A DNA stretch of 64,000 bases. It comes from Chrysoperla carnea (Eukaryota > Arthropoda > Insecta > Neuroptera > Chrysopidae). Under the pieces are notes generated by a model that had not been told where the DNA came from, searched no databases, and saw only the letters and a program-made list of their open reading frames with translations. Both the position numbers and the translations under genes were made by a program. The stretch is taken from positions 102,108,368-102,172,367 of the forward strand of contig NC_058337.1 in the NCBI RefSeq assembly GCF_905475395.1. The letters are read 5' to 3'. Below, piece after piece: positions 6,735 through 57,742 of the stretch. Numbering within the stretch: the stretch's first letter is position 1; each line of letters begins with the position of its first letter.

Positions 6735-9373
6735 ATGGAAGAATATCCAATTGTTCAAGCTTCGACATTATTAAATTCTTCGGATGAATCAACGGATGTT
6801 AAAAATAAGGAAGAACAAAAAGAATGGATGAAACGTATTTTTCTAAATTATAAACCCGATGCATCTACTGGCGAAATAGGTTTTAAGTTTAACTAAGTGT
6901 TCTTGGAATTCGTTTTTTAATTTTGTGCGATTTTTTCTTTATAGAAAATTTGTGGTCTCGTGTATCAGAAATGGTGGGTTTCTTTAGTGAACCTGTACCG
7001 TCGGGTGGTGGAACTGGTGATACACGTCGTGTTGTATGTTACCCCGATTTACCAATACCTGCAGCAGCTGCTCCACCAAATCGTGAAGAAGTGTTTCGTA
7101 ACGGTGGTGGAATTGCTAAAGTTGAGGATCATCCATATCGTACTGCCGTACAGCCACGATCAACAACAATTGCTCCAATAATTGCGGCAGCGAAACAAGA
7201 ACCTCGAGATGATCCCTATCAGTGCAATGTTTGTAATAAAACTTTTGCAGTACCTGCAAGATTAACACGGCATTATAGAACACATACCGGTAAGTTTTAA
7301 ACAAATTTCTTTTTAAATAATTAACTTTTGGTATTATGTAATATTGATAACTAGCTCGACCCGTTCGGTACCCGTGACTAAAACAGGCTAAAGAAATAAT
7401 ATATAAGTGATAAATATCAACACTTTTTATTTATAGGCAATTTTATTACAGATAGGATATACAAATTGCATACTGAAAAAAATTAAATCTTAATATTATT
7501 TCTATAGATGTTGTTTCTTAAGCGGTAACTTTTTAGATCGTGAGTCAATTTTTCGTCATAAGCTTTAAAATGAGGGAAATAATATAATAAATATGGAAAA
7601 ATTATGTATATGTGTACAATAATTCGATTTGTGCCCAGAATAAAATCCGATATTTAATCTGCTTTTAGTATTAGTGTTTAATTCACGGAGTATATATAAA
7701 AAAAAAACTCTTAGTATAAAAGAAACCACAATTTTTGAAATTTATCGAATTTTAAAAATAAGCAAACTTTTCAAAAATTTTACAATTTTTGGCATGGTCA
7801 TTTTTCTATCATTTTAACGAAATGTTATTATTTATAAAAATATTTAATATCAATGTTCTAAAATCAAAATTAAAAAGAAAAAATGTATATCAGTAAATTG
7901 AAATTGTTATTGATAGAAATTTGTAACTCGAAATTCATTTTTGTATTTTTGATTTTTCCAGGTGAAAGACCGTTTCAATGTGATTTCTGTGATAAAAAAT
8001 TTGGTGTTAAAGAGAACTTAAGTGTACATCGTCGCATACATACGAAAGAACGTCCATATAAATGTGAAGTATGTTCACGCGCATTCGAACATTCTGGTAA
8101 ATTACATCGACACATGCGTATACATACAGGTGAACGACCTCACGCATGCTCTGTATGTAACAAAACATTTATACAAAGTGGACAATTGGTGATACATATG
8201 CGTACACATACCGGTGAAAAACCATATGTATGTCCGGTATGCGATAAAGGTTTTACATGTTCCAAACAATTGAAAGTCCATTCACGTACACATACCGGCG
8301 AGAAACCGTACAATTGTGATATATGTGGAAAATCATTTGGTTATAATCATGTTCTCAAGTTACATCAAGTGGCACATTATGGTCAAAAAGTGTACAAGTG
8401 CACGATATGTCAGGATACATTCACTAGTAAAAAAACAATGGAAGCACACATTAAAACACATTCAGAAAATGCAGCATCATCACCACAATCGCCTGATTAT
8501 CCTCAACAAGCATCACCTGTTTCAACAACTTCATCGATACCACCCTTATCACCAGGTGGAGCTATCAGTTCCTCGACGATGATCTCCACAACTCCACCAC
8601 CATCTCATCAACAATCACAACCGACAGTATTACAACAACATATAACACAAATGGAAACGTTCAATAGTGAATCAAACGGTAGTGTAAGTGACAAAGAGAA
8701 CAAAGACTTAAGAACATCTCCAATGCCAACACCAATGGAACAAGATCCTCACCAAATGAATCATCAATTCATTCAAATAAATCATCAAAGACAATCACCT
8801 CCAATATCACACAGTGTAATTAATCAACAGCCATCTTCACCACATTGGTATTCAAAAAATTCCCCCGAGTATGTGTTCTATTTGCAATCATCAAACAACG
8901 GTGGTGTTAATCCTGCACTATTAGCTGCTGCAGCAGCGGCACGAGAAGAACGCACCAGTACACAAAGTCCACCACAAGGTACAACTTCACCGTATGTCGA
9001 TTATCCTGGTACATCAGATATGAGAAACTTAGTCACAGCTTTCTTTCCCCCACAAAAAATACCTGAAGAAATCCCATCACCCCGATTGGATCGTGGTAAT
9101 GATATTCGAAAACGTGTTGAAGCTGCATTAGCGGCGGCTGCAATCACAAGTAGTGATCCTTTATTATTAACACCACCAAATTCTCTTTCAACATCACGCG
9201 ATCCATCAATATCACCAGAACCACAAGATTTAGATCGTAAACCTATCAGTCTACCACCACGAAAACGTTCAAAAGACATTTTAAAATCTATGTTACAACA
9301 AGATATTAAACCGGTTTCCGTTGTTCCTGTACGATATTGTTCGGTTATACAATTTGGGGGATCTTCGTTATAA
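6735..9373 (+). CDS. Kr-h1: Krueppel homolog 1 (Kr-h1), C2H2 zinc-finger transcription factor
   Basis: Kr-h1 is the nuclear factor induced by juvenile hormone through Met-Taiman; it represses metamorphosis genes. Three exons join in frame: 6735-6879, 6945-7289 and 7962-9373, giving 633 residues. The first intron is only 65 bases; the second is 672 bases and splits the HTGER linker after finger 1. Seven C2H2 fingers are visible, from YQCNVC (about residue 140) through YKCTIC, joined by TGEKP-type linkers. A long Ser/Pro/Gln-rich tail with an alanine run follows, then the C-terminal block with RKRSKDILKSM and SVIQFG that I associate with Kr-h1. The family usually has eight fingers, so one may be absent or too degenerate to see. 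ATG 6735 is chosen because it opens the frame spliced into exon 2. Alternative 5' exons are known in the family and cannot be placed here. Confidence 0.93.
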
Positions 9374-12047
9374 AAATTTAAAAAAAAAATGTGTTCTCGA
9401 TAAAGACAAATTAAATAATATATTTTTCATGTGTAATTTCGTGATAATTCGCATTTTCGCAAAATAGACTGATTCTAATAAATATTTTTAATTTAATAGA
9501 AAAAAAAAACTACAACAAAAAAAACAATAGAATTTCAGCACAAATTTTTGCATTCCTATTAATAAATTTGTGCTAAAATAAAAAATAATTTTAAAATATT
9601 TATTTTTCTGTGATATTATAAGAAATATTATCTTTTTTTTAACTAAAGATATTGGTTGTTAGCACTAAAAGTGTGAATATTCGAAGAAGCAATGATTTTT
9701 TACTAAAATCAGGTGACATCTCGTCCTGTAATAGAATCAAAGTTTCTACAAAAATGTCTCAAAACATTTACTAGTGGCATATTATAAATAAAAAATTATT
9801 TTCACTTAATGAAATATTTCAATGTGCCGGAAGTATTTCCATAATCATGGATGCTGATTTAAGTGAAAATATTGTATATATTTATATCGTGCGATTGGTT
9901 ACAATTCCTCGATCATTGATTCTTTAATGGCTGATGTGGATAAATATACATACTTTTAGTTCTCTAATCTAAATTAACTAATTTTTAATTTTAGATATAT
10001 AGAAATGGTCAGCGCATAAAGTATGTGTGTAAACGATCTCTATCATGTATAAAGCATTTTCAACTATACCTCTTATTGAAATCAATTTTAGTACATTAAT
10101 GATGGCGCTGCTATACAGTAGTGTATATAATTATGTTATAAGGTATCGTCTTAGATAAAAGCAGTGCCATTAACTAATTGTTTTTAAATAATTTTTGAAA
10201 AGCTCTGTACATTTATTTGATCGAGATTTATACTAGTCTTTATTAAAAGAGTTAAGATATAAGCGCTTTCCAATTTTACATATCTGTTATAAATAAAATA
10301 CACTACCAAACACAAAAAGTTAATTATTTATATAACAAAATATTCCAATAGTTTAAAATATATATATTTATATAAAAAAAATAAAAAAAAATACAAATGC
10401 AATAAATATTTTCAAATCAAATACCTCATTGCAGTGCCTAGAAATATATTCACGCACTGCCAAACTTCAAAGTTCTATGTGTTTTTGTAAATACGGATCT
10501 AATATAAAAATAGATGTTATTAAAAATAGAGATTATTGTTATTTAAATTTAAAAAATGGTAGATTTGAGACTTTTTTTATTCAAAAAAAAAGTAATATAT
10601 CAATAATAGTTCTATATTTTTAAATCGACTGTATCACAAATGCCATAATAAAATTATATATGATTATATTTTTAAAATTTAGAACAATTATTGATTTATA
10701 ATACATACCTAATTTTTTTTTCTTATTAAGTTATATTGTTTTGTTATTGAATAATAATTATTGTGAATGAAGAAAATAAATAATAATAAAATGGTGAACT
10801 TTTTTAATATTTAAAAATATTCTACTTACCTATTATTATTTATATTTATAATTTTTATGATATACATCGTACTGTCATTCAAGTCTGAATTAATTGCAAG
10901 AAATAAAAAATGTTTTAATTTATATTGTATTCTGCTACAGTTATTGTAAATATTATATATATAAAAATATATCGTTATAAAGACTTGTATGTCTTCGTTG
11001 TAGCGTATTAGATATATTAATTTTATCATCTACGCTTTTAAACAATAAATAATTTTTTTATTTATCAAATATACGTTGTTTTATTTTTACAAGTTTCATA
11101 TGCCTTAATCATAAATAAAAGATGTAGTCTATATTCGTTTTGGACGCTCGGGCTGTTTGAGTACGCTCATAAAGGGCGTTTACTTATTTTAACGCTGTTA
11201 GTGCTCACAAAGCGTGCTAACACAGTGTTCATGAATGATATGTTTGACACTAAAGAAGTTAGCAACACTATTATCAAAGTAAGTATACATGATCATGAAT
11301 ATCCCAATTGATTATGATTTTGATCCTTAAACCCGCTCATCTCATGTGGAATGCACCTTACATTTTATTTTGTTGACATAAACTCACACCTAGTTAATGT
11401 ACCATAACTATTTTTGAAACTGGATACCACGATATCCACTTGTAGAGATTAATTAATGGAGGCTATCAAGAATTAGTAATGGAGGCTTAAGAATTCAAGA
11501 ATATTGCGCTTTTAATATTTGAATTCAAGAATAAGGGCGCTGTCACGTGAATGGTTTGTACTAAAATAATAAGGATACTGTCATACAAAGAAATGCTATT
11601 ACTATTGCCATCTAATACAATCTGATTGTACTATAATAGATGAAACTGTTTTTCAATAGATTTTCAACAGCGAGAACGTGTGATGTTTTTATGTAAAAGT
11701 TGCCTGATGTCCAATGGCCTCTGTCCTTCTAAACTTTACCTAAACCAAAGAGGTTATATACAACCTAGAGGCTTAAAAGCATAGGAAACGCAATAAGTGA
11801 ATTATTGACCTTTCGATTTTTAGGCTAGCAGCTTAATATAATAATAAAAACACACGAAATTGGTATTTGACTATTTCACCATGAAATGTTGTAGAAATAA
11901 ATAAATAATTAAGTGCATGTCTATGATTTGTCAGAGGACAAACTAATAATATTTTGTGGGTAAAAACCATTATAAATGTGAGCTCTTATGTGTATATCTG
12001 CATTCTTTGACATAGTCGATGCATTTACCTACTGAATTCATTATACC
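9374..12047. other. Kr-h1 3' untranslated region, then intergenic DNA
   Basis: The first 1-1.7 kb after the Kr-h1 stop is very AT-rich with many possible AATAAA signals and is probably 3' untranslated sequence; its end cannot be fixed. From about 11100 the composition is more mixed, with no convincing coding exon, RNA gene or repeat. The region ends at the insertion site of the foldback transposon. Confidence 0.4.
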
Positions 12048-12056
12048 CACCGGGCC
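12048..12056 (+). repeat. 9-bp target site duplication, left copy
   Basis: CACCGGGCC lies immediately outside the left terminus of the 9.5-kb element and is repeated exactly at 21601-21609, immediately outside its right terminus. A perfect 9-base duplication is what MULE and Foldback (FB) elements leave on insertion. Confidence 0.9.
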
Positions 12057-13612
12057 AGCTCCGTATACTTAGCAGATAAAATTGTTATTTTTCACTCAAA
12101 CTATTTCCATTCATTTGGGAGGATTTGGGAATATAATTTTAGAATTTGGGAATTATTAGTTTTCCTGTAATTAATGATTCTTTTTTCAGCGTATAGTTAG
12201 CAGGTAGGAAATTAAATCCACTTAATTTTTATGTTATTCGAAAGGAAATCATTTGGGAATTACGATAAACACGGTTTCAGAGTTTGGGAATGTATAATTA
12301 ATTAATTACACCTATTTTTTAGTTAATTGATAGGTTATGTTAATTAACCGTACATTAATTGTTATATAGCAGTATGGCGCCAATATTCAAATATTACTGA
12401 ATAATTTATTTTATAATTTATGTAAATGTTAAGTTTTATTTTGCCTTAAAACTGTTCTTATTCAATTGGAAATCGTTTGGGAAGATTTAGGAATATAATT
12501 TTATTTAGGACTGATTAGTTTTCATTTAATTAATTAGTTCTTCAAAGCGTATACTTAGAAGGTAAAAAATTAAATTTTCACCATTTTTACGTTATTTGAT
12601 AATAATTTACATGGAGACTAATCTAATTAATTTGGGAATCACATTAAACACGGTTTCATCATTTGGGACACTAAAATTATTTAATTAATTACATTTATTT
12701 TTTAGTTGATTTTTTGTGGTTATATTAATGGCGGCAATATTCAAATGTTACTTCATTTACAATAATTTTGTTTTTTTAATTTATATAAATGTTAAGTTTT
12801 ATTTTCCCTTAAAACTATTCTTATTCAATTGGGAATCGTTTGGGAAGATTTAGGAATATATTTTTATTATTTAGGACTGATTAGTTTTCATGTAATTAAT
12901 TAGTTTTTCAAAGCGTATACTTAGAAGGTAAAAAATTAAATTTTCGCCATTTTTACTTTATTTGATAAGAGTTTACATGGAGACTAATCTAATTAATTTG
13001 GGAATCACATTAAACACGGTTTCATCATTTGGGACACTAAAATTATTTAATTAATCACATTTATTTTTTAGTTGGTTTTTTATGGTTATATGAATGGCGG
13101 CAATATTCAAATGTTACTTCATTGACAATAATTTTGTTTTTTTAATTTATGCAAATGTTAAGTTTTATTTTTCATTAAAACTATTCTTATTCAATTGGGA
13201 ATCGTTTGGGAAGATTTAGGAATATAATTTTATTATTTAGGACTGATTAGTTTTCATGTAATTAATTAGTTTTTCAAAGCGTATACTTAGAAGGTAAAAA
13301 ATTAAATTTTCACCATTTTTACGTTATTTCATAATAATTTAGATGGACACTAATCTAATTAATTTGGGAATCATATTAATCACGGTTTCATCATTTGGGA
13401 AAGTATAATTAATTTATTAATTACATTTATTTTTTAGTTGATTTTTTTGTGGTTATATTAATGGCGGCAATATTCAAATGTTACTTCATTGACAATAATT
13501 TTGTATTTTTAATTTATGTAAATGTTAAGCTTTATTTTTCATTAAAACTATTCTTATTCAGTTGGGAATCGTTTGGGAAGATTTAGGAATATAATTTTAT
13601 TATTTAGGACTT
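12057..13612 (+). repeat. Left arm of foldback element, ~366-bp tandem units
   Basis: The arm has a terminal unit (12057-12430) and further units anchored by an ATGGAGACTAATC word near 12610 and 12976, with a variant (ATGGACACTAATC) near 13342, giving a period of 366. Each unit carries TTGGGAATC, AAACACGGTTTCATCATTTG, GGCGGCAATATTC and CGTTTGGGAAGATTTAGGA words. It stops within a unit at about 13612. The outer ~550 bases appear almost identical to the inverse of 15718-16270. Confidence 0.9.
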
Positions 13613-14289
13613 GTTCGAAACATTTGCCGAAAACAGTATAATAACGAAAAAACGGACTGAAAAGTTTTACCCAAAATAATTATAATTGTTTCTACGACAT
13701 CAAGACACTCTTCGAAAAATATTTTCCAATAAATCCAATGAAAGTGGTTTCTTTTTCCATAAAAACCATTTTTTGTTCAAATTGGAATGAAGAAACACGC
13801 AAAAAAATTAAAACTCTGTCTTAACTATTCGGTTATTTACAAAAAAAAAAAAAAAAGTGCTCGGCTAATGTTTGCAAGTTATGGATCAGACTGAATTTTT
13901 CGAGTTTTACGTATATATCAAGTTAAAAACTCTATAAAATGCTCAAACCAACTCAACCAAATTTGTGAAATTATATAGTACCTCCTACGCTAGCTTGTAC
14001 CTGTACCTACTATAAGAGAATAAATATTTTATTTACAATTTTATCAATACAAATGCAGTTTTTATTTCATGATCAATTTATTTATCTTTATTAGAATAAA
14101 CAATTAGACTATCAATAATTTTCCTTTCTATCCACACTTCACACTTCCTAATTAACACTTATTTTATTGAACGAATTATTAATCTTTAATGAAAATAAGA
14201 ATTTATTTCAATAGAAAAATTTGAAAGTAGTTTCGCAAAAAGCATTAATCTGCACCTACATAAAAAATGATACAAATTGAATATTTTGA
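13613..14289. other. Loop between left and middle arms
   Basis: Roughly 680 bases of AT-rich, non-repetitive sequence starting at TTGTTCGAAACATTTGCC. It has no ORF and no similarity to the arm units until about 14280. It is the loop of the large inverted repeat; internal loops of this kind are usual for FB elements. Confidence 0.6.
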
Positions 14290-16270
14290 CATTAATCAGT
14301 CCCAAATAATAAAATTCCAAAATCTGAATATTTTGACATTAATCACTCCCAAAACACTTCGAACAAACCTTCACAAACGATTCCTGATCTTCGAAAATTT
14401 CCCGATTAAATAAAAATAGTTTTAATGTCAAATAAACATTTACATAAATTAAAAAAAAAAAATTATTGTAAATGAAGTAACATTTGAATATTGCCGCCAT
14501 TCATATAACCATAAAAAATCAACTAAAAAATAAATGTAATTAATTAAATAATTTTAGTGTCCCAAATGATGAAACCGTGTTTGATGTAATTCCCAAATAA
14601 ATAAGATTAGTCTCCATGTAAATTATTATCAAATAACGTAAAAATGGTGAAAATTTAATTTTTTACCTTCTAAGTATACGCTTTGAAAAACTAATTAATT
14701 ACATGAAAACTAATCAGTCCTAAATAATAAAATTATATTCCTAAATCTTCCCAAACGATTCCCAATTGAATAAGAATAGTTTTAATGAAAAATAAAGCTT
14801 AACATTTACATAAATTAAAAATACAAAATTATTGTCAATGAAGTAACATTTGAATATTGCCGCCATTAATATAACCACAAAAAAATCAACTAAAAAATAA
14901 ATGTAATTAATAAATTAATTATACTTTCCCAAATGATGAAACCGTGATTAATATGATTCCCAAATTAATTAGATTAGTCTCCATGTAAATTATTATCAAA
15001 TAACGTAAAAATGGTGAAAATTTAATTTTTTACCTTCTAAGTATACGCTCTGAAAAACTAATTAATTACATGAAAACTAATCAGTCCTAAATAATAAAAT
15101 TATATTCCTAAATCTTCCCAAACGATTCCCAATTGAATAAGAATAGTTTTAATGAAAAATAAAACTTAACATTTGCATAAATTAAAAAAACAAAATTATT
15201 GTCAATGAAGTAACATTTGAATATTGCCGCCATTCATATAACCATAAAAAACCAACTAAAAAATAAATGTGATTAATTAAATAATTTTAGTGTCCCAAAT
15301 GATGAAACCGTGTTTAATGTGATTCCCAAATTAATTAGATTAGTCTCCATGTAAACTCTTATCAAATAAAGTAAAAATGGCGAAAATTTAATTTTTTACC
15401 TTCTAAGTATACGCTTTGAAAAACTAATTAATTACATGAAAACTAATCAGTCCTAAATAATAAAAATATATTCCTAAATCTTCCCAAACGATTCCCAATT
15501 GAATAAGAATAGTTTTAAGGGAAAATAAAACTTAACATTTATATAAATTAAAAAAACAAAATTATTGTAAATGAAGTAACATTTGAATATTGCCGCCATT
15601 AATATAACCACAAAAAATCAACTAAAAAATAAATGTAATTAATTAAATAATTTTAGTGTCCCAAATGATGAAACCGTGTTTAATGTGATTCCCAAATTAA
15701 TTAGATTAGTCTCCATGTAAATTATTATCAAATAACGTAAAAATGGTGAAAATTTAATTTTTTACCTTCTAAGTATACGCTTTGAAGAACTAATTAATTA
15801 AATGAAAACTAATCAGTCCTAAATAAAATTATATTCCTAAATCTTCCCAAACGATTTCCAATTGAATAAGAACAGTTTTAAGGCAAAATAAAACTTAACA
15901 TTTACATAAATTATAAAATAAATTATTCAGTAATATTTGAATATTGGCGCCATACTGCTATATAACAATTAATGTACGGTTAATTAACATAACCTATCAA
16001 TTAACTAAAAAATAGGTGTAATTAATTAATTATACATTCCCAAACTCTGAAACCGTGTTTATCGTAATTCCCAAATGATTTCCTTTCGAATAACATAAAA
16101 ATTAAGTGGATTTAATTTCCTACCTGCTAACTATACGCTGAAAAAAGAATCATTAATTACAGGAAAACTAATAATTCCCAAATTCTAAAATTATATTCCC
16201 AAATCCTCCCAAATGAATGGAAATAGTTTGAGTGAAAAATAACAATTTTATCTGCTAAGTATACGGAGCT
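14290..16270 (-). repeat. Middle arm of foldback element (inverted)
   Basis: This is the inverse of the left arm plus one extra unit. The GATTAGTCTCCATG-type word recurs at 14605, 14972, 15338 and 15704 (intervals 367, 366, 366). A degenerate unit occupies 14290-14470, and the terminal unit ends at 16270 with ATACGGAGCT. The terminal unit agrees with the left arm better than the third arm does, including the TATCTGCTAAGTATACGG ending against TACCTGCTAACTATACGG in the third arm. Confidence 0.9.
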
Positions 16271-16639
16271 ATGTGCAGTATAGATAAAATGTCTCGAACG
16301 AGAGAGAAAACAAATATTGTCGGCACCGTAAAGTTTGGACATTCTTTCCCGTACCAACTGCCCATATAGGAGTATATTACATATATGACAATACCGTAAA
16401 GTGAAGTTGTTCTACGATAGGGCTGCATAGTGTTATCTCTCTTACTCCGGTTTCTTTTCAAATCCATAAGACTGCTCCAAGAGTAAGTGAGATAAGAGTA
16501 ACATCGAATTTATGTTAAAGTTCCATAGGTCTTTCTCTCTTACTCCGAAAAGGTCACAGCATACCTACAATGTCCTACAGCATTTTGAAGGTTCAGATCA
16601 TTTCGACATTTCAGTCTGCTGTTTTCCTAGCTGTCAAAA

Positions 16640-17372
16640 GTGTCGTTATTTTGTACAGCTTACAAAGATTCAGAAATATCAACTCGTAAAGAAGACGAAA
16701 TACCATTTGCTATCACGGGGCCATTACAAAGCAGACCTACAGATTTTAATAAAAGTCTTAGTAATCCAAAATTTAAAGACGCAATACTTACCTTTTTACA
16801 TAATCATTTGACGGACACTACATGTAGCTCAATTATTAAAGACAAAAAAGTTTTTTTAACAGTTGAAGACAATTGTTTTGTGTACACTCATAGTAATTTG
16901 GAATAATAACTCGAATAATAGATGAAAATTATGAATGCTACTATGAAGAAGCTGATACAAGAATTTTTTTCCACTTAAACAAATGTTCACCTCAACAAAA
17001 AATCCTCATAAAATCATTAGATACTGACGTGTTTATTATTTGTCTCGGAAACTCAAAGAGCAAGAAGTATGGATCACAACCAAAACCAATAACGAAATAA
17101 ATTACGTAAATTGCACACAACTCGCAGAAAAGCTAGGTTCATCAGTCTGTCGAGCTCTACCGGACTTCCATGCTTTTAAAGGTTTTGATTATACAGCAGC
17201 TTTTGTTCGTAAAGGAAAAATTAATGCCTACAACCTCCTGTTAAAAAATGAAGAATATCAGAACATGTTCGAGCATTTGACAAATCCGGAAGACATAAAT
17301 GATAAAGAAAAGACAGATTTAGTCCAAAGATTTACAAATGAAATGTATAACGTAAAAAAAAAAATAAACTAG
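16640..17372 (+). pseudogene. Decayed ORF of a multicopy invertebrate protein family (EADTRIF motif)
   Basis: Three overlapping frames carry one protein remnant: a first part ending in FLTVEDNCFVYTHSN (to about 16906), a second with EEADTRIFFHL and LDTDVFIICLGN (about 16910-17085), and a third with CRALPDFHAFKGFDYTAAF and LLLKNEEYQNMFEHL (17040-17372). I remember the EADT...SDTDV...LPAFHALTGCD pattern from uncharacterised, multicopy proteins of many invertebrates, often in repeat-rich regions. At least two frame changes separate the parts and the N-terminus is missing, so it should not give a full product. It lies inside the foldback core and may be the remnant of the core's own protein or of an earlier insertion. 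Function of the family is unknown to me. Confidence 0.65.
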
Positions 17373-18284
17373 AATTAAACACATTTTTTGTATCAACCTT
17401 CATTTATTATATAATCAACCCAAATAATAATTTTCCTGTATTTCCTCTTTTCCATATTAATTAGTATAATAAATAGTTAAAAACTTAAGGAAGAGACCAG
17501 AGGTAGAAGAAAGACTCTAAAAGAAATGTCATCATGTAAGTGAACTCTATAACAGTATAATCCTCACTCACACAATAAAATTTGGTATGCGCGATACTTT
17601 CGGCAGTTTGTAAGCACGCATACCAAGATAATTATAAATGTGACATTAAAACGCGTGAATTAAAAAAAAAACAAAAGGTTTTCGTGATAATGGATCAATT
17701 TTACCCCTTATCACACCATTCAAATAGGTATGTGTGACCTTTCCGGCTAAAAATTATTGGTCGGCCGGATTTTTTCTTGTTGACGGAATAAAATTATGGA
17801 AATTTAATAATAAATAATTTAATTAAAATATTTCCGGCCAATCAATCCACGCCGACCAAGCAAATCTTGTTCGTGTAAACGTTAACTTTTATTTTTTATT
17901 AAAAATATTAGAATCCGTGATCACGGAGCTTTCAGGATTGGTGGCTCCTCGCCTATTAAGAGTTTGTATTTAATGAAAATAAATGTTTATTCAATAGTCA
18001 TCGTTATCTGGAAAAAAATCGTAATATATCATTTTATCATTATCACATATTTAGTTCCTATCACAATCTGTTCTTTTCTGCATATTACTTTTACAAAATA
18101 ATGTCGATGTTTCACATCTGCCAAGCGTCCCGTGACGGCTCACATTTTTTTTTACATGGATTATGCATTATAGCCAAGGGTAACGAGCGTCTACTAAAAA
18201 TTATGGAGATGTTGATTTTTAAAGATTTCACTCTCAGGTTCTATGAAATCAATTTTAAACTTTTCCCTTGATTTAAAAATTTTT
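17373..18284. other. Core of the foldback element between the decayed ORF and the zinc-finger gene
   Basis: Mixed-composition sequence without an ORF. A short GTGATCACGG palindrome lies near 17918, and GGTATGCGCG/CGCATACC form an inverted pair near 17585-17625. The right end probably holds the 3' untranslated region of the minus-strand zinc-finger gene that stops at 18285. Confidence 0.4.
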
Positions 18285-20087
18285 TTATTTGTTAATTAAA
18301 ATAATAACATTTAGATGTTTATGATCATTCAATTCGTTTTTATTTGTAAATATTCTGTCGCAATCTTCACACGCATATGGAGTTTGATCACTATGAATTC
18401 TTCTATGTTTTACAAAGTTTATTTTCATGCTAAATGTTCTATGACAAACATAACAACAATATGGCTTGTCTCCTGAATGTGTTCGTTTATGCCTAGTTAA
18501 AACATGCTTCAGACTGAATGCTTTATCACAAACATCACATGTATATGGCTTCTCTCCTGTATGAGTTCGTTTGTGTGCATTTAGGCTGCTGTGCTGAGTA
18601 AATGTTTTATTACAAACATTACATGAGTGAGGTCTTTCTCCCGTATGAGTTCTTTTATGAGTATCTAAATGATTTTTACGGTAGAATATTTTACCACAAA
18701 CATCACAATCAAAATATTCTTCTGCTGTATGAATTCGTTTGTGTCTCAATAAAAGTAAATTCGAAGTAAATTTTTGATCACAAATTTCACATTTAAAAGG
18801 TTTTTCTTGAGTATGTGTTCGTTTATGTTTAACTAAATCACCACTATATCTGTATGATTTATTACAAACATCACATGAGTAAGGTGTTTCTCCGGTATGA
18901 GTCAGTTTGTGACTACTTAAATTGTACCTGAATTTGAATTTTTTATCACAAACATCACATGCATGCGGCTTTTTTCCTGTATGAATTATTTTATGTATAT
19001 TTAGATTACCAACAGCAACGAATGTTTTATAACAAATTTCACATGAATAGGGTTTTTCGCCGGTATGTCTTCGTTCATGTACAGCAAGATGACATTTTTC
19101 TGTGAATGTTTTATTACAAATATTACAAGAATAAGGTTTTTCTCCGGTATGTCCTAGCTTATGTTTAGCAACATAACATTTATCTCTGAATGTTTTATTA
19201 CAAATATTACAAGAATAAGGTTTTTCTCCTGTATGAGTTCGTTTATGATAAGTTAATTTGGTACTAGTTCTGAACTTTTGGTCACAAACATTACATGCAT
19301 GCGGCTTTTTTCCTGTATGAATTTTTTTATGGTTACATAGATCACCAACAGCAACGAATGTTTTATCACAAATTTCACATGAATAGGGTTTTTCGCCGGT
19401 ATGTCTTCGTTCATGTACAGCAAGATTACCTTTTTCTTTGAATGTTTTATTACAAATATTACAAGAATAAGGTTTTTCTCCGGTATGTCTTAGCTTATGT
19501 TTAGCAACATAACATTTTTCTCTGAATGTTTTATTACAAATATTACAAGAATAAGGTTTCTCTCCAGAATGAACTCGTCTATGTATTTTCAAGCTAGTTT
19601 TTTTGTTGAATTTTTGGTTACAAACATCACACGAAAAAAGCTCTTCTTGTGTATTTGTGTGAATTTCTTTTAACATTTCATCATTTTCTGATTCACATCT
19701 GTTAAACATTTCGTCGAAATCTTCATCTTTTATAATTAATTCCGAATGTAAAGCTTGTTCAATTTTAATTTTTGATTTTTTCAACATCTCATCAATATTC
19801 TCATCCATTTCATCATGGTTTGAATAAAATTCTTTTGATATTTCTTCGTCATTGCAATCAATTAATTGTAAATTTAACTCTTGTTCAATTTGAATTTTTT
19901 CTTTTTTCAATATTTGTTCACCATTTTCAATACTTGTTAATCCATCAATTAAAATTAGTCCTGTTTGTAACTCTATTTCAATTTTTGTTTTGTCATTTTC
20001 AACTATTTGTGTTTCATCAATATCCTCATCCATTTCATCATTATTTGAGTAAAATTCTTTTGACATTTCGGTATAATTAATTAACAA
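18285..20087 (-). CDS. C2H2 zinc-finger protein, 600 residues, carried inside the foldback transposon
   Basis: The uninterrupted 600-codon frame is a poly-zinc-finger protein, probably nuclear and DNA-binding. Residues 1-150 are acidic and contain a repeated module: KEFYSNNDEMDEDIDE at about 9-25 and KEFYSNHDEMDENIDE at about 85-100. Fifteen complete C2H2 fingers follow from residue 151 with TGEKP-type linkers, then a sixteenth that has lost its final histidine spacing. Fingers 2-5 and 6-9 are near-repeats of the same four-finger block, a recent internal duplication. No KRAB, ZAD or BTB domain is seen. The reading frame is clean over 1.8 kb while the neighbouring ORF in the same core is decayed, so it is likely to be expressed or very recently acquired. 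Either ATG at residue 1 or 8 could start it. Its targets are unknown. Confidence 0.85.
   Translation of the reverse strand: MLINYTEMSKEFYSNNDEMDEDIDETQIVENDKTKIEIELQTGLILIDGLTSIENGEQILKKEKIQIEQELNLQLIDCNDEEISKEFYSNHDEMDENIDEMLKKSKIKIEQALHSELIIKDEDFDEMFNRCESENDEMLKEIHTNTQEELFSCDVCNQKFNKKTSLKIHRRVHSGEKPYSCNICNKTFREKCYVAKHKLRHTGEKPYSCNICNKTFKEKGNLAVHERRHTGEKPYSCEICDKTFVAVGDLCNHKKIHTGKKPHACNVCDQKFRTSTKLTYHKRTHTGEKPYSCNICNKTFRDKCYVAKHKLGHTGEKPYSCNICNKTFTEKCHLAVHERRHTGEKPYSCEICYKTFVAVGNLNIHKIIHTGKKPHACDVCDKKFKFRYNLSSHKLTHTGETPYSCDVCNKSYRYSGDLVKHKRTHTQEKPFKCEICDQKFTSNLLLLRHKRIHTAEEYFDCDVCGKIFYRKNHLDTHKRTHTGERPHSCNVCNKTFTQHSSLNAHKRTHTGEKPYTCDVCDKAFSLKHVLTRHKRTHSGDKPYCCYVCHRTFSMKINFVKHRRIHSDQTPYACEDCDRIFTNKNELNDHKHLNVIILINK
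18882..19553 (-). repeat. Tandem four-finger block duplication within the zinc-finger gene
   Basis: Residues 179-290 (19218-19553) and 291-402 (18882-19217) are two copies of a four-finger block. Matching helices are REKCYVAKHKLRH/RDKCYVAKHKLGH, EKGNLAVHERRH/EKCHLAVHERRH, VAVGDLCNHKKIH/VAVGNLNIHKIIH, and a more diverged fourth pair. The period is 336 bases. Confidence 0.85.
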
Positions 20088-20295
20088 AACCTATTTTCAC
20101 CATGAACATAAATATTGTAAATATAACATGATAACATTTTAAATATAATATAAAAAATAAAATAATAAAAATTTCTTACCATTCATAAATCACCAAACAG
20201 GTTATACACAAATACATACATATACAGGAAGCACGTGCAAACCATAGGTCGCTGTGTAAGTGGAAATGGCTGCAAAAATATAAATTTGATTATGA

Positions 20296-21600
20296 ATCCA
20301 TGTAAATTATTATCAAATAACGTAAAAATGGTGAAAATTTAATTTTTTACCTTCTAAGTATACGCTTTGAAAAACTAATTAATTACATGAAAACTAATCA
20401 GTCCTAAATAATAAGTTATATTCCTAAATCTTCCCAAACGATTCCCAATTGAATAAGAATAGTTTTAATGAAAAATAAAGCTTAACATTTACATAAATTA
20501 AAAAAACAAAATTATTGTCAATGAAGTAACATTTGAATATTGCCGCCATTCATATAACCATAAAAAATCAACTAAAAAATAAATGTAATTAATAAATTAA
20601 TTATACTTTCCCAAATGATGAAACCGTGATTAAGATGATTCCCAAATTAATTAGATTAGTCTCCATGTAAATTATTATCAAATAACGTAAAAATGGTGAA
20701 AATTTAATTTTTTACCTTCTAAGTATACGCTTTGAAAAACTAATTAATTACATGAAAACTAATCAGTCCTAAATAATAAAATTATATTCCTTAATCTTCC
20801 CAAACGATTCCCAATTGAATAAGAATAGTTTTAATGAAAAATAAAGCTTAACATTTACATAAATTAAAAAAACAAAATTATTGTCAATGAAGTAGCATTT
20901 GAATATTGCCGCCATTCATATAACCATAAAAAATCAACTAAAAAATAAATGTAATTAATAAATTAATTATACTTTCCCAAATGATGAAACCGTGATTAAG
21001 ATGATTCCCAAATTAATTAGATTAGTCTCCATGTAAATTATTATCAAATAACGTAAAAATGGTGAAAATTTAATTTTTTACCTTCTAAGTATACGCTTTA
21101 AAGAACTAATTAATTAAATGAAAACTAATCAGTCCTAAATAATAAAAATATATTCCTAAACCTTCCCAAACGATTTCCAATTGAATAAGAACAGTTTTAA
21201 GGCAAAATAAAACTTAACATTTACATAAATTATAAAATAAATTATTCAGTAATATTTGAATATTGGCGCCATTCTACTGTATAACAATTAATGTACGGTT
21301 AATTAACATAACCTATCAATCAACTAAAAAATAGGTGTAATTAATTAATTATACATTCCCAAACTCTGAAACCGTGTTTATCGTAATTCCCAAATGGTTT
21401 CCTTTCGAATAACATAAAAATTAAGTGGATTTAATTTCCTACCTGCTAACTATACGCTGAAAAAAGAATCATTAATTACAGGAAAACTAATAATTCCCAA
21501 ATTCTAAAATTATATTCCCAAATCCTCCCAAACGATTCCCAAATGAATGAAAATTGTTTGAGTGAAAAATAACAATTTTACCTGCTAACTATACGGAGCT
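20296..21600 (-). repeat. Third (right) arm of foldback element
   Basis: The arm begins within a unit at about 20296 (CCATGTAAATTATTATC) and holds anchors at 20654 and 21019 before the diverged terminal unit. It has the same orientation as the middle arm but differs from it at scattered bases in the terminal unit, for example CATTCTACTG against CATACTGCTA. It ends at 21600 beside the right target duplication. Confidence 0.9.
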
Positions 21601-21609
21601 CACCGGGCC
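21601..21609 (+). repeat. 9-bp target site duplication, right copy
   Basis: CACCGGGCC follows the right terminus directly and equals the left copy at 12048-12056. The flanking sequence then diverges, as expected for a simple insertion. Confidence 0.9.
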
Positions 21610-22332
21610 CGCATTTGAGTAAAGATCTTAAATATCTTTGATAAAATTTACCATACAACCGTGTACCGTTGATTTTTCAACGGGTTTCACCAATGTAAAG
21701 GAGTGCTTAGATTATCAAAATTTAACTGAACAACTGTTACCATAAAACTTGGATGCTTTCTTGACAGATGGATATTTATATGAAATCGTAGGTACTAGCT
21801 GCTAATTTCCTATTAGTTCAATACATTTTTATTATATAAAAATAATAATTTGAGAACCTTAAAAATAAAAATCATTATTATATTGTACACATATTTAAAG
21901 ATTAATTAATTATTTTAAATACAATACATGGATATAATTAATATTATGATTTATATTTTTATTTAAATAATTGGAAATTGAATACAAACGCATCCAAAGC
22001 TATTACTAGTTCCTTCAAAAATTCTAAAGAAATTGAACATAAAACTTTGTCCAAATTCTTTGCTAGTGTAAGCACCTCTTAAGAGCATTTTGATTACTAC
22101 ATTGCCTATCCGTGTTTTAGACTTTAATATTGTAGAGATATTTCTTTTTGAATTTAGTGGCGGAAATAGTTTGTTATTTGTATAGTTAATTCATTTTAAA
22201 ACTTATTAGAGCCGGCGTTTGATGAAAAAGGTGAAAAAATAAGTAAATATTTGGTATCAACGATAATTTAAAGAACTTTGTTAAAGTTCTAATTATCTAC
22301 TTTGTGAAACCGGGGATCTTTTAAAAAACAAA
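21610..22332. other. Upstream flank of SmB
   Basis: AT-rich intergenic DNA without a recognisable exon or repeat. The SmB transcription start and 5' untranslated region should lie in its last 100-200 bases. Confidence 0.4.
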
Positions 22333-23032
22333 ATGGTAAGAAAATTTAAGTTTATTCAATACGTATATATCTATAACCTAAAACTTATTTTTTTAGACGA
22401 TAGGAAAGAATAATAAAATGCTTCAGCATATCAACTACCGAGTTCGGATAATATTACAAGACTCCCGAACATTTATTGGTACATTTAAAGCATTTGATAA
22501 ACATATGAACTTAATATTAGGAGATTGTGAAGAATTTCGTAAAATCAAACAGAAAAATGCTAAACAAGTTGAACGTGAAGAAAAAAGAGTATTAGGATTT
22601 GTGCTATTACGTGGTGAAAGTATAATATCGATGACAATTGAAGGTCCACCTCCACCTGAAGAAGGTTTACCTAGAGTACCAATTCCTGGAGCAGCTCCAG
22701 GTATTGGGGTAGGACGTGCAGCTGGACGAGGTGTCCCAGCTGGAATGGCAGGAGTACCTGCTGGTTTACAAGGGCCTGTAAGAGGTGTTGGAGGTCCATC
22801 ACAACAAATCATGACACCAACCGGACGAGGTCAAGTGTCTGCACCACCACAAATGCATCAAGGTCCACCAAGAATGGGTGGACCTCCACCTGGCATGATG
22901 GGACCCCCACCCGGTATGATGGGAATGCCTCCTGGTATGCAGATGGGACGTGGTGCACCTCCAATGGGGCCACCTGGAATGAGAGGGCCACCTCCAAATA
23001 TGATGCGAGGAGGTCCACCTAGACCATATTAA
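22333..23032 (+). CDS. SmB: Small nuclear ribonucleoprotein-associated protein B (SmB)
   Basis: SmB is a core subunit of the heptameric Sm ring on spliceosomal U snRNAs. Exon 1 contributes only the ATG (22333-22335), followed directly by GTAAGA. Exon 2 (22397-23032) begins ACGATAGG, giving [16 protein letters not shown] and 212 residues in all. The Sm fold is seen as Sm1 (about residues 14-50, with [16 protein letters not shown]) and Sm2 (about 70-85, with [14 protein letters not shown]). The tail is rich in Pro, Gly, Met and Arg with PPPGMM and GRG repeats, as in SmB/B' proteins. The 61-base intron after the start codon means the ATG is easily missed; an internal Met at residue 9 would lose the first residues of the family N-terminus. 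An AATAAA at 23084-23089 is a reasonable poly(A) signal. Confidence 0.95.
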
Positions 23033-23773: not shown

Positions 23774-24602
23774 TCACGTAAGGTTTTTTTTTGCAAATTC
23801 AAACACAAAAAATTGGTAAAAGCACTCGTTTATTAAAAATATACAGTAGTCTGCAAGCATTGTGACATCCCATCTTACTTGGTACCGTCTCTCGATATCG
23901 CGGACATCCTGGTGAAACCGCTCTCCCTGTTCTTCACTGTAAGCTCTCAGGTTTTCAGAAAAATATTCTATGTGAGAGTGTAAAAAATGGACCTTCAGGC
24001 TTATCTTGCAGCCTTGAGCTTCGTAAGCTACTAGTTGAACAATGATTTTGTAGTCAGCATCCTTAGTATTTCCCAAAAACTTTCGCACTACATCCTTGAA
24101 CGATACCCAACCTTCTTTTTCCTTCTCAATCATACTTTCCACAAACAGGGTGTCAGTTAAAAGCCTTCTTATGTCGGGGCCAGTGAAAACTCCCTCTTTC
24201 AACTTTGCTTCTGACAGCTCCGGGGATTTTGTACATAGATATTTAAAAAGTCTCCATCCTTTTGCAGTTATTTCACAAATTGTTTCATCAACCCCAATTT
24301 GATATAGAGAGGTGGCAACAAAACTTTTTCTGGTGGCACCAAAGTAGTATTGATAACATTTTCTCCCCAGGTTTCTAATTTTCTCGGGGTGCCAATCACT
24401 TTTAGTCCAGTGCTGTTTTCTGGCTCTACTATCCCATAAGCATAAAAAGCATGGGTATTTAGTGTAACCTGCCTGCTGATCCAAAAGCATCGTGAGTATT
24501 TTGAAGTCCCCAAAAACTATCCATTGATGGTCCTGTTATTTGAATCTTTCCAGGGTAATGGCCAAATTATTATAGTTAGTTTTCTTCCATATGGACAGAA
24601 TA
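23774..24602 (-). pseudogene. Decayed multicopy ORF (YTKYPCFLCLWDSRAR family)
   Basis: The minus-strand frame 23774-24490 carries GYTKYPCFLCLWDSRAR at its start and HSHIEYFSENLRAYSEEQGERF and RRYQVRWDVTMLADYC near its end. A second frame (24268-24513) carries INTTLVPPEKVLLPPL and YIKLGLMKQF, which belong between these in the same protein, and weak similarity continues upstream to about 24602. I remember this pattern from many near-identical uncharacterised proteins of insects and other invertebrates that look mobile-element-derived. The parent element class is not known to me. The copy is broken, with about two changes of frame, and no terminal repeats were found. It is not expected to make a product. 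Confidence 0.7.
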
Positions 24603-26392: not shown

Positions 26393-29300
26393 ATGAAGAT
26401 GTTGCGGGCTACATACTATGCTTTCCGTTCATTAACTCACGTAAGTGTTTTTAATATTTTTCTTTATTGATCAATTTTTCTTTAGTATAATTTTTCAGAG
26501 ATAATTTTCGTTTCTAAATAATGCATGACCTACCTGAATAAGAAACATAGTATCTGTAATTTTACTTATTGTTTTATCTGCGTTTTATAATAGTTTTTGA
26601 TAAAATTATGTAAGAATTGATTTTTAGCGAAATCATCGAAGTTATTAAATATGATACAACGTGGGTTTGATTATCGATTGTTTCTAGATTTTTCGAACAA
26701 TCGACATAGCGGGAATAGTTGTTCTATTTGGTCCATTGAAATAGGAATAGATCCACATAACTTCTTTGGTTTAGCCATATTATATTGATTCATAAAGAAA
26801 ATATCTAAAAAGAATTAATCACCTTTTTGGGCTGATGAATAGGCAATAGCTACCACAAAAGAATACAGTTTTAATAGGGAATATTCATGTATTTTTTTTA
26901 TATTTATAATTCATTGTTTACACCGTTATAACAAAGTAAAAAATATAAATACTGCTTAAAACTGGTGTATTTAAGTGTAAAAAAATATTTAAATACATTA
27001 TAATTTTGAGATATTTAAACGCAATTTTTTGGCGCTCCCTGTTGATGACGTATATGTACGTGATCTGTCAATTGGTGGCAGTTCAATATATAATTTACAC
27101 TTTAAAAAATGAATTTACAACATAGAATTTACACTCGTTATTATTTATTAAGTTTTCTAATAAAAAGCCGTAGAATAGTATAATTTAATGAAATACCATA
27201 TAAAATGTAAGCAATTAATATCATATAGTATGTCAACAAATTTGACAAGCCCGTACTTTGATGTCACGTCCGTATAAAAATTTGAATTTCCGTTTTAGAA
27301 ATTTTTAAATGCCTTCATTGAATTTGTTTTTTTTTATTAATTAATTTTAAGTAATTAAAAAGATATTAATTACTAAAATAATGGTTTAGTTGAAATGTCC
27401 AGTCATTAAAGTTACGGAAGAAAAATATTTGAACCAAATTTAAATTTCATGAATATTCCCTATTGTGTAATCGTAAAAATGAAATAAAATTGTTGAAACC
27501 GTCTGTTAGTCTATTTGGATTACGTACTCTTAATTTAAAAATAGCCGATTTTTATCATTACTTAATTCAAAATTAGTCGAATACTTCGTCGTCCGTTGAT
27601 TTGTGTACACTTGTGATTGCTCGCTACAGGTTACAATTCTTTTGACAAGTATATTGTTTATATTAATTCGTAAAGCATCTCAATAGAAGTTTTGATAAAG
27701 CATGATGATCGGCTTCATGAAACCTGCTCATGAAACTGGTATTATTTGTCCGTAATTCTCGTAATTCTGTATCCTAACTCTACGATAATACTTTCAATAA
27801 ATAAAAAATAAAGTTAAGATGCGAAATATTCAAGGATGAAAATGCAACCCCTTAATTGGGAATATAGCAGCTAAACCACTTCGAAGCTGATGGAGGTTTA
27901 AAGCTGCCTAAAGATTTTTCTTACGTATTGTGAAGTGCTGACACTAATTTTCTAAGAGGCGTGATTGTAAAATGGTGCCAAAAATTGTTACAGCAATTTT
28001 TATAAACAAACGACAACAAAAATTATATTGCCGAGTAAACGGTCGTTTTGGCGTATTTTCAAATTTTAAATTGAGACCTTTTTTGAAGCCAAAATTTTTA
28101 AATTTTTATATCTAATCATATAAAATGCTTTGTCCTGAATGGTTGATTGACTGACTGATCAACGTACATTCGAAAAACAAGCCCAAGTATGGGACAACGT
28201 GATTCTTTGTTCCAATCTACTTAGATTTTTGCATAAAACTCTTTAACAGAATTCATTGAAGACGTGTTTCATATTTTATTCATCGCTTGACGTAGTTAAA
28301 AAGGGGTATAATGTTATTTTATGGATGATCGAAGTTAGTAAATATGTAAAATTAAGCGAGTGCATTTCTTGGAAAATTTTAAGGAAAATGTCAATTTTGT
28401 TCAATGGTGAATAAGTTTAGTAGATTGATCATTTGCCATACGCCAAAACAAACCAAGCACCCAGGTTCATAGTGATTCATGCGGCGGTAATTATAAAAAC
28501 TGTGCTGTTAGCTATGGTCTGTGGAAATTCTTTGGCATACGCGCTTCGTCATGTGTTAATCCAGCCCTGACTATCATTTTCAAACATTTCGACGATTGTG
28601 AAAGCTGTAAGTCAAATTCACGATCTCCGTAATTAGTAAAACACTTTCCGTGTTCCGAAAACACTTTGCTTAAGTAAAAATATAGTTGGGTAGATTAAAA
28701 TGGACCACCATTCATTTACACCAAATATTGAACTGCCGGAAATATGTCAACCTTCAATCTATTCAAATTCCGGGTGTGTGTGTCTTCAATATATAAATAC
28801 TATAAAATACATTTTTAGTGACTGTATGTTCCGTTAAATAAAACAAGATGCCATCTAAAAAAGTTGAATCCTTGAAAAATCTTCATTTCGATGTAAAAAT
28901 TGGGATTTTAGTACGGTTAGTTAAGTTAATTAATTATTTTATTATACAGTTAGTAATGGTTAATAACTAACTACATAAACATTTCTTCATAGAATATCAA
29001 AATCGAGTTTCTTGTAATCGAGTCACAAAAGGTAAAAAATTTTATTGTTACGGAACAATCCTTTGTTTAATGAATAGAGAATTATGTCATAACGAAAGTT
29101 CATTAAATATTCAAATAAATAAAATGTTATCTGTATGAAACAATTAAAAATTTTTTATAGTTGATTTTTAAGATTATTTTTAGAATTCATGTGACAAACT
29201 TGTAAGTTTTTGAAGTATGATAAATTTTTCAAATTGTTGTTTGTTAAGTTTTTGAATATAATCCAAATTTGTTACAAAAAAAATTATATTATCGTTAAAC

Positions 29301-32300
29301 CTATAAATAGAATTATTATTATTTTTTTTTTTTCAAAATACTTTTTTTATTTCATTGAAAAATATTAAATGTTTTTCTCTGCATGTTTGTGAAACAATTC
29401 TGCCTGAAAAACACTGAAAATATGAAATAACATTTATAGACTTAGTGCATGTACTGTATAATATGTTTGGTAATGAATAATTTTTTTACGCACAGTTAAA
29501 AACAAACTTATATTATTTTTAAATACTGGCAATAGTTCAATTTTGAAAATTGTATATTCCTTTAGATAAAATTTAAAAAGTCATATTTTGTTAGGGTATA
29601 AAGGGGATAAGCGAGAGCAACCTTTAACAATATTTACTTTTAAACCCAGCGAAGCGAGTGGGTATCACTATATTTGTGTAATAACTAAAATTTACACTAA
29701 AGTTCTTTAGTGTAAACGAATATATTCTGTCAATAAACTAATGAGATTTTTTAAGTAAAAAATTTCATTTTGGTACTTGTATGGGGGGGGGGGTAGATCG
29801 AGCAACAAAGTGCGATTATTTCTTGAACAATTTGGAGATGTTCTAAAATACCATAAGAGACTTGAACTGGTTACAACTTTGAAGGATTTTAACGATGATT
29901 GACTTAAGTTTATCCCCTCAGTCTACTAGTTCTTCTTCCGAGCTCAGCTTGTTTTCCTTTCAGCCAGTAGCCTGCAATTCGCTCCGAGCGTGAATTTCGT
30001 TTCCATGACAACGATACACTACTTTAATTATAGAATTAATGGATGCATATATAATTGTGTGGATTGCATTGAAAACTTACATTTAAAATTTAATATTCTT
30101 GTTTCACAAATTTAAATAAATAATTACGATAATTAACATTTGAAAAATAATATTTGTACAATTTGATTTCTTATTTTCACAATTTTTAATGCATTAAGTT
30201 TAATTAATTAGTGTTTTTCAATCATTTTAATTTGACAGTTTCTATATCATTAACATGTAAAGAATTGCAAATTAGTCATAACAGCCCACTTTATCTCCAA
30301 AATTTTTCACTTAAAGCGCTGGCATCGATTTTATTATCCCTACCATGACTACGCACACAACGAATAGCTGCTACTTATATTACATATAGAGAGATTTAGC
30401 GGAAGAAATTAAAACTCTTTCGATTGATTGTACAGTTCCTATAAAAAGCGCTTGAATGTTTTTGTGATGCTTGTGCCGATAGTTTTGTACCAGGTTTTCA
30501 TATTTTCAGTGTTATAATTATACTTTTGCAATGTAATTAGAATTAGATGCGTATTGTTTATAAAAATAAACTAGTTTTAATATTATTTGCTTTGTATTTA
30601 TATTTATAAAAATTTTGTTAAACAATTATTATTTCTTGATATAAAATAACAAAATATAAGTATTAATTTACGCAAATTGACAGAGTAAATATTGAACTTG
30701 TAGAGGTTAACACATTTAATTGTGAGATAAATGGATTTGACGTCTTTGATTTTTTAAAAACAAGAGTGATCAGATGGAAAGTTAATTGGAAGACATGCAT
30801 TTTTTTGATGATTTAATTTAGAATTTTTAATTTATTATACTTAGTAAAATGTCAGTTTTTAAATATTCGCGGAAATATATGTCTAAAAAATAACGTTAAA
30901 AAATAACGTAAAAACTAATGTTAGCAAGCCTTGGCGCAATTTTAAATGATCTCACAAATTCTTTTAAACATAGCTGGATTCACTCGCTTAGTTTCGATAA
31001 CAAATAGGTTACTATTCATTTGAGGAAGAGCGTGAGAAAAATTAACAAATTGGCGTAAGGTGCGTGAAATTGCAATTTCTTGACTTGTTCAAAAAATGTA
31101 TATGCCGCAGCCAACTAGCTTTATTAGCCGTTCAATTAACAGTCTCGTCTTTTAACTAAACAGTTAAAAGTTACACCGTTAAACTAAGGGCCTGAATGAT
31201 ATTCAGCCATAGCATTTAATACAACATTTAAAGAACTGTCTGGCTTGTATTTAGGCCATTCATGCAATAGAGTGCAGTGAATTTGAAAAAAAGATTTTCT
31301 TTTTGAAATATTGTCGCCATAGTTTGCATCTGAGTACTGGAACTTTGGCTGCTTAGAAAATCAGTTTTTAATAGTACCATACTTATTTTCAACTTTTTGT
31401 ATACTCTTCCATTGTACTTTTTTGCGTAATCGCAAGATGGCCTGCCAGGTGGCAGAAAAAGGAACTGAATTAAAATGACAAGGCTAGGCAAGTAGCTAAA
31501 CGTCATCGATCCAAGTCATTAGCATTGCTGTTTCATTAAATGACTGAATATCGTTCAGACCACTAGTTGAACAGCGGCGTTTAGGAAAGGGTTGGGTTGT
31601 GAATTGAACGGCTAATTAAGCTAATTGGCTGCGACATATATACGTTATGAAGAGCAATCTTAATGGAGGGTTAATTACAAACAAATTATTTAACCACTTT
31701 AATGAAAAGCGTATAATATAGAAAACTTTGAGTGTTACTCCTTGATCGGATGATATTGTAAAATCATTAAAACGGATATATAATTTTGACTGCGTTTTCA
31801 TATTTTAAAGAAGGCATATTAAAATATTTGAATTTTGATCTGCAGTTTTTAATAATCATCAGTTCATCACTATTTAAATTTTTTTTAAAGCATGCTTCAA
31901 ACATGGTTGTCATCAATAAATTTATGTTATCTATAAAAAATGGCACACTTATATTGAGGCTGATCGATGTAAATGTCTAATTAAAAATGATATCAGTATA
32001 ATTAATCTTTTTTAAAAAGTAAAATTATATTAATAATAAAAAGATAACGTTGTTACTATGAATGTTGTCTACCTATTTAAGGAATGTAGACTTTCATTTA
32101 TTTTTACGGTAAAAGTTTCTCTAATCACAATGAATTCATTAATTATCTCTGGAATATTTTACATTAACGTCATATTTCTTTTCAATTAGTATGCTGGAAT
32201 TAACCCGCGAACTTTGAAAAAACTCAAATGTAGTTCATAAGTGATAGAAACTTTTAACCCCGAATATATCGAAAGTTCACTACGCCACTTTGGGCAAGCT

Positions 32301-50379: not shown

Positions 50380-50917
50380 TTTATTTAAAGTGAAAATCTT
50401 TGTGATCGCAGGAAAAGATATACAGCCTAATTTATTTAAAAGATCAAATGGATATTATTTTTGTTATGATATTTTGACGTTTGCATCATAGGTGCGTACA
50501 GCTGTCAATATTTGTAACTTGGGTACAGCCAATCCGAGCCATCTTAAAGAGCTGTAAATAAATGAGTAAGAGCGTTCGCCATCTTTATGCTAATGTCAAA
50601 TAGATAAAATGTTCTTAAATCATCGAAATTGAATTTCATGAGATAATAAATTAATAATATGCTTTATTAATTGATTATAACAAGTAATTTTAATCAATAT
50701 TTTTATACCGTAATATTTTATTAACTTGTAAAAATTTTGAAAAATTAATATCCGAGATTAAAGAACAAGTAAGTCAGTTTATGAGAAAAATAAATCGAAA
50801 TAAAGTGCATGGACTACTTCATGGATGAATGCGGGTATCACCTAGTGTCCCGATAATGGTTGTCTGGAGAAAGAAATCTTACCCCATGTACTCGCTCCCT
50901 GTCCCAGGAATGAACTA

Positions 50918-57473: not shown

Positions 57474-57742
57474 TTTTTTAACCTGTCAAAAAGTTCTATT
57501 ATGTAATGAAGTTATCTTCTAGTGAAGATATAGTTGACTAAGTTTGCACCACTTTATTAAAATATACACGATTTCTTAATGAGTTGTTCACATTGACGTT
57601 AGAGTACAACTCTAACGTTGTATAACTCTAAAGTCAATGGTTTTTCACTTAAGATTTCAGGGCCATAATGTTATAAACATCAACCATCATCGTCGTTAGC
57701 TGATGTATGTTAGCAATAGCTGATTTATTATTACAATAAATA

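Follow-up and report, generated by a model that had tools for sequence, protein, structure and literature searches.

A putative composite foldback transposon with a C2H2 zinc-finger gene between its arms in Chrysoperla carnea

The stretch analysed here (the window) comprises 64,000 nucleotides of Chrysoperla carnea contig NC_058337.1. It contains a 9544-bp block (12057-21600) that consists of foldback (FB) arms and of a 4026-bp segment of non-FB DNA with a C2H2 zinc-finger gene, the whole enclosed by an outer 9-bp target-site duplication (TSD). A sequence-only reading had described this block as one FB transposon in which the gene takes the place of a NOF-like core. The features of the block and its boundaries are as follows (three arms are designated L1, R1 and R2; ORF, open reading frame; UTR, untranslated region).

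12048..12056, no strand: left TSD, CACCGGGCC (exact word match; chance estimate)
12057..13611, plus strand: L1, left arm of the complete left FB; a terminal block followed by 366-bp units (Tandem Repeats Finder [TRF], self-alignment)
13612..14363, no strand: loop (middle domain) of the left FB, 752 bp, largely unique within the window (self-alignment)
14364..16270, minus strand: R1, right arm of the left FB, ending in TATACGGAGCT (word match, self-alignment)
16271..16279, no strand: ATGTGCAGT, the 9 bp 3' of the right terminus of the left FB; differs from CACCGGGCC
16271..20296, no strand: cargo, 4026 bp of non-FB DNA (self-alignment)
16491..17372, plus strand: ORF debris across several frames (ORF list, Pfam, PDB)
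18285..20090, minus strand: main coding exon of the C2H2 zinc-finger gene (ORF list, Pfam, finger pattern)
20091..20179, minus strand: predicted intron GTAAG...AG, 89 bp (read by eye)
20180..20254, minus strand: predicted 5' exon, 5' UTR plus ATG (inference)
20297..21600, minus strand: R2, outer right arm; 2.6 units plus the terminal block, with the inner end broken inside a unit (TRF, alignment)
21601..21609, no strand: right TSD, CACCGGGCC (exact word match; chance estimate)

Arms and target-site duplication

Tandem units were called with TRF, which reports a period of 366 in three arrays: 12409-13611 (3.3 copies), 14435-15918 (4.1 copies) and 20297-21237 (2.6 copies). The block has three arms, and R1 has an element terminus of its own at 16270. 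L1, loop and R1 together constitute a complete foldback of 4.2 kb (12057-16270) with the terminal motif at both arm ends: AGCTCCGTATA begins at 12057, and its complement is found at 16260-16270 and again, at the outer end of R2, at 21590-21600. Long terminal inverted repeats (TIRs) with internal tandem repeats, a feature of Mutator/Foldback elements, are thus present. Self-comparison revealed no arm-like sequence elsewhere in the 64-kb window.

The three arms are not equally related. L1 and R1 (14716-16270) are inverted copies that differ at 5 of 1555 positions, R1 having in addition one unit (14364-14715) beyond the unit count of L1. Between L1 and R2 there are 53 mismatches in 1306 aligned positions, plus indels. 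Over its outer 1220 bp L1 shows no difference from R1 but 47 differences in 1219 positions from R2, and L1 and R1 have in common an 11-bp gap against R2. Judged by these alignments, the closest partner of L1 is R1, not R2: L1 and R2 do enclose the gene, as arms do in elements of the Pack-MULE type (MULE, Mutator-like element), yet L1 pairs better with R1.

The 9-bp word CACCGGGCC occurs exactly twice in the window (both strands), abutting 12057-21600 on each side. The chance of a 9-bp identity at two fixed positions is ~1.8e-5; for a word as GC-rich as this, in a window of 28% GC, ~6e-8 is expected per site. This exact TSD is restricted to the outermost termini of the block. The left FB has no TSD of its own, being flanked by CACCGGGCC on one side and by ATGTGCAGT on the other, and was therefore not inserted here alone: the outer TSD belongs to the block from L1 to R2, not to the left FB. 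Mutator/Foldback DNA transposons are recognized by TSDs of 8-11 bp at their outer termini, and the duplication found here is an exact one of 9 bp.

The perfect duplication on both sides (12048-12056 and 21601-21609, absent from the rest of the 64 kb), the inverted termini at 12057 and 21590-21600 and the arms of ~366-base tandem units had all been noted in the sequence-only reading, and each is borne out. Its foldback structure with a gene between the arms also stands, but the single symmetrical element does not, the third arm (R1, with its terminus at 16270) having been overlooked. Nor does the gene replace the core of one FB: a complete FB (12057-16270) adjoins it on one side, while the other side is capped by a single truncated arm.

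Cargo and zinc-finger gene

Within the cargo the sole similarity to FB sequence is a gapped arm match that extends to 20280. A search for inverted repeats marking a separate transposon inside the cargo gave only 10 short imperfect pairs, the longest of 29 nt at 76%. The ORF debris at 16491-17372 may be akin to the mobile-element ORFs that are common in aphids. Pfam found no family above cut-off in the separate pieces of this debris; the last and longest of them (114 aa, 17028-17369) had no convincing relative in PDB, the one match having an E value of 0.92. Peptide patterns were also run against viral contigs, where relatives of one debris piece (13 stretches) and of the zinc-finger protein (3 stretches) were sought: none was confirmed.

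The zinc-finger frame lies on the minus strand (18285-20090) and is open for 601 codons from stop to stop, or 593 from the first internal ATG, in keeping with the clean frame of about 600 codons reported earlier between the arms. It encodes 15 canonical C2H2 fingers (by a simple pattern), a degenerate sixteenth and an acidic N-terminus; above the Pfam cut-offs the protein matches zinc-finger families only, plus a BolA match that overlies the fingers. Removal of the predicted intron would give ATG|GTT TTG..., in which the ATG forms the last codon of a short exon and is in frame, and a product of 602 aa. An intron at this place, if genuine, would argue against a retrocopy and for capture at the DNA level.

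Upstream of the predicted 5' exon lies TTTTTGCAG, which may be the acceptor site for a further exon that is now missing; the junction with R2 may have cost the gene such an exon or its native promoter. The predicted 5' exon – the first that is recognizable – is 42 bp from the edge of R2, and because so little DNA separates exon and arm, transcription of the zinc-finger gene may start in or near R2. Divergence between duplicated parts of the protein was expressed as non-synonymous (dN) and synonymous (dS) change. For fingers 2-5 compared with fingers 6-9, dN is 0.097 and dS 0.105, with all zinc ligands retained: since dN is close to dS, we claim no purifying selection on the gene. A 17-codon duplicate at the N-terminus shows 3 synonymous and 2 non-synonymous changes (dS 0.64, dN 0.05), too few to rely on.

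Origin and class of the block

In the region 11500-22500 there are 33 ORFs of at least 50 aa, 29 of which fall inside the element (12057-21600); 18 of the 29 were scanned with Pfam, the remainder being one ORF at 20169-20342 and 10 that overlap the zinc-finger gene in other frames. As far as seen, this copy of the element would be non-autonomous: the scanned ORFs include no transposase of the MULE/Phantom or NOF kind, and the four that touch the loop of the left FB (13612-14363) have no transposase match. No MULE clade is therefore named. The tandem-unit arms and the 9-bp TSD would nonetheless fit, by analogy, Mutator-type foldbacks such as Tm1 and Tetris. Foldback architecture is also known outside Mutator, as in Galileo, which has a P-element transposase (PMC3169594).

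We think it somewhat more likely than not that the block is a non-autonomous foldback composite, of the Mutator (MULE)/FB type, that moved host DNA as one unit. A complete FB (12057-16270) would formerly have stood on one side of the C2H2 zinc-finger gene and a second FB on the opposite side. A transposase supplied in trans would then have used only the outermost ends, left in the first FB and right in the second, and passed over the inner FB end; the whole 9544-bp block would have been inserted between a Kr-h1-like gene and SmB, giving rise to the 9-bp duplication. The arrangement resembles the FB composites of the Drosophila Ising TE: there is DNA between FB elements and a TSD around the block, with none around the inner FB, although all that is seen of the second FB is a single arm. 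That the gene moved as cargo is suggested by the one outer TSD of a single copy.

Several points weigh against this account. R2 is broken within a unit, so that a second complete FB is assumed and not seen; the near-identity of L1 and R1 could be explained by later conversion between the arms; the Pfam scan found no transposase family up to E = 1 in 18 of the 29 element ORFs (short spliced exons would escape it); and the window holds a related zinc-finger gene without FB arms, which means that such genes also occur here without the help of an FB. There is, in addition, a fairly unlikely but serious alternative in gap repair. According to this main rival an FB was already resident at CACCGGGCC; repair after a break copied another FB and its flank with the gene and rejoined in the resident right arm, the resulting composite never having transposed. 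The truncated inner edge of R2, together with the short gapped similarity to 20280, could be the repair junction, and MULEs are described as acquiring host DNA (PMC6446971). However, the outer L1 should then be the resident arm and distinct from the donor R1, whereas the two are identical over 1220 bp to the last base, unless later homogenized. A simple FB built around the gene as a core, to which a later inverted duplication of L1 added R1 and the loop, would account for L1 and R2 as an inverted pair at duplicated boundaries. But R1 stops exactly at the element terminus, which would not be expected of an inverted duplication entering from flanking DNA, and neither the loop nor the extra unit of R1 has a counterpart in L1: we consider this origin very unlikely.

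The composite transposon has also to be set against explanations that assign the gene a different history. Instead of being host cargo, the zinc-finger gene might belong to the element as an accessory gene, a role that the C2H2 ORF of Spectre, an aphid element, may also have; this is scarcely to be expected of a gene that lies outside the complete FB and encodes 15 fingers, and whose relative elsewhere in the window (47% over 333 residues) lacks FB arms, and Spectre itself has TIRs of 74 bp and no foldback arms. Just as improbable, in our judgement, is an old resident gene with two FBs inserted on either side and a 9-mer match due to coincidence or rearrangement. The related gene 26 kb away, without FB arms, would suit such a history; the exact identity of the 9 bp beside the two outer termini (chance ~1.8e-5) would not, and nor would the left FB, which lacks a duplication of its own (for R2 only the outer side is visible). 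Least plausible of all is an artefact of assembly, a collapsed palindrome or one read as a hairpin: long, near-identical inverted arms are difficult to assemble, but the five differences between the arms, the extra unit in R1, the unique loop and the exact outer TSD all speak for a real structure.

A bolder proposition is that FB composites are one engine that disperses and multiplies the lineage-specific C2H2 genes of this insect group, intron included and with a new start from the FB arm. We regard this as unlikely. The second zinc-finger gene without FB arms indicates that FB composites would not be the sole route of dispersal. Were the proposition true, a transposon would have spread genes of a family to which some ascribe the restraint of transposons. 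FB composites flanked by a TSD would be easy to tally in assemblies of this insect group.

Drosophila FB and FB-NOF elements have tandem-repeat arms and 9-bp duplications; the block is likened to them by architecture, and no NOF-like or MULE ORF is found among the scanned ORFs. In Pack-MULEs the gene fragments sit between one pair of TIRs, whereas here a whole frame lies between an FB and a further arm. These plant elements are described as non-autonomous Mutator elements carrying host gene fragments (PMC6446971). In the Ising TE of Drosophila, FB elements bracket host DNA, and the whole moves as a block (PMC6431247). It spans hundreds of kb, as against the 9.5 kb of the present block, with its one complete FB, its single arm and its putative movement. 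If the block did move as a unit, it would be a small, sequence-resolved natural counterpart of those very large Drosophila composites, with an open regulatory gene as its load.

Among smaller elements, Tm1/Cg-1 of root-knot nematodes belongs to Mutator/Foldback and is grouped with Mutator/Phantom (PMC3169594). It is similar in its FB-like composite TIRs of variable length, its mostly 9-bp TSDs, a named gene in an element of the family and non-autonomous copies; it differs in that Tm1 has repeat units of 13-15 bp, not 366 bp, and in that Cg-1-type elements are described as lacking obvious protein-coding potential, the one at Cg-1 being also without a TSD, whereas here a frame of 593 codons is open (PMC3169594). 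Tetris of Drosophila virilis is a foldback whose TIRs contain tandem repeats of ~220 bp and whose TSDs measure 8-10 bp; its three complete copies are reported to have no conserved ORF, Mutator is suggested as its superfamily, and the portion of the account available mentions no captured gene, in contrast to the block described here (PMC4079207). Spectre, a MULE of Myzus persicae, carries a transposase and, adjacent to it, an ORF with a C2H2 domain, which makes it conceivable that zinc-finger ORFs are parts of such elements; with TIRs of 74 bp, no foldback arms and a transposase it differs from the block on each count (PMC6446971). The Phantom MULEs of aphids, likened to the block by description, have TSDs of 8-10 bp, TIRs of 18-613 bp and a minisatellite after the transposase ORF; they possess a transposase, and none was seen in the block (PMC6446971). 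Complete hemipteran elements in a 2026 survey of arthropod MULEs measure 2.0-9.1 kb; their TIRs range over 30-1527 bp in the table, and the text gives 1193 bp as the longest; at 9.5 kb, with arms of 1.3-1.9 kb, the block is at or just above this range (PMC13359780).

The protein itself has a tandem C2H2 array, TGEKP-type linkers and no other known domain, and in this it is like the ZF271-like/APEZ proteins of Hemiptera: these likewise combine C2H2 arrays, a pentapeptide linker and no other domain, and form large lineage-specific families (PMC6444547). Some hemipteran genomes have more than 350 C2H2 genes through independent expansions (PMC6444547). For this family the available portion of that source discusses clustering in tandem (in the milkweed bug) and the possibility of an arms race, and it does not mention carriage by transposons; repeat content and the size of ZF271-like expansions are reported there to show no correlation, a finding that tells against any general part played by transposons in C2H2 expansions (PMC6444547). 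The sequence-only reading knew of no described element with this content. As regards the kind of element this is too strong, since comparable ones are in print (Ising TE, Tm1/Cg-1, the C2H2 ORF of Spectre), but for a multi-finger C2H2 gene in a foldback element the searches of an open-access library turned up no description – weak evidence of absence.

Searches of sequence collections added little. The exact terminus and unit patterns had no match in viral contigs, and the exact unit pattern had none in contigs of prokaryotic genomes, collections that are uninformative on the host genome. The exact terminus pattern gave four matches in genome contigs, all bacterial by their titles, where ~7 are expected by chance (18 fixed bases, 257 Gb, two strands); when the four loci were compared with the full arm, the 20 best BLAST rows contained short matches (20 bp exact at one locus; at most 26 bp, at 88%). 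Rfam, run on the whole window at the gathering threshold, returned nothing.

Surroundings of the block

To the left of the block a C2H2 gene recognized by Pfam (7874-9373) is one that we take to be Kr-h1, and to the right lies SmB (22397-23032). The gene content of the window is that of an insect. The second zinc-finger gene is 26 kb from that in the block:

45969-47102, minus strand: second C2H2 gene, of the same zinc-finger type, with 10 canonical fingers

It is 47% identical to the gene in the block over 333 residues, and there is no FB arm near it. By eye, the DNA just 5' of its ATG looks like a portion of the sequence that encodes its N-terminus. An 86-bp repeat (84% identity) occurs just left of the composite (11872-11956) and upstream of this second gene (47355-47270).

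Other repeats are scattered over the window. One of ~596 bp is present in three copies that are 91-94% identical (26873-27468, plus strand; 52676-53263, minus strand; 57739-58332, plus strand) and, with its inverted ends GGAATATTCATG/CATGAATATTCC, looks like a miniature inverted-repeat transposable element. Self-complementary stretches of 277-338 bp (65-89%) at 3584-3921, 41319-41632 and 50916-51192 are probably small inverted-repeat elements, and a 371-bp repeat (91% identical) is found at 845-1215 and 29999-30368. A frame of 253 codons (23774-24535, minus strand) has no Pfam match and appears mobile-element-like by eye. Finally, a 129-bp tandem duplication (1.9 copies, 90% matches; 48993-49232) lies within the frame of a CAAP1-domain gene.
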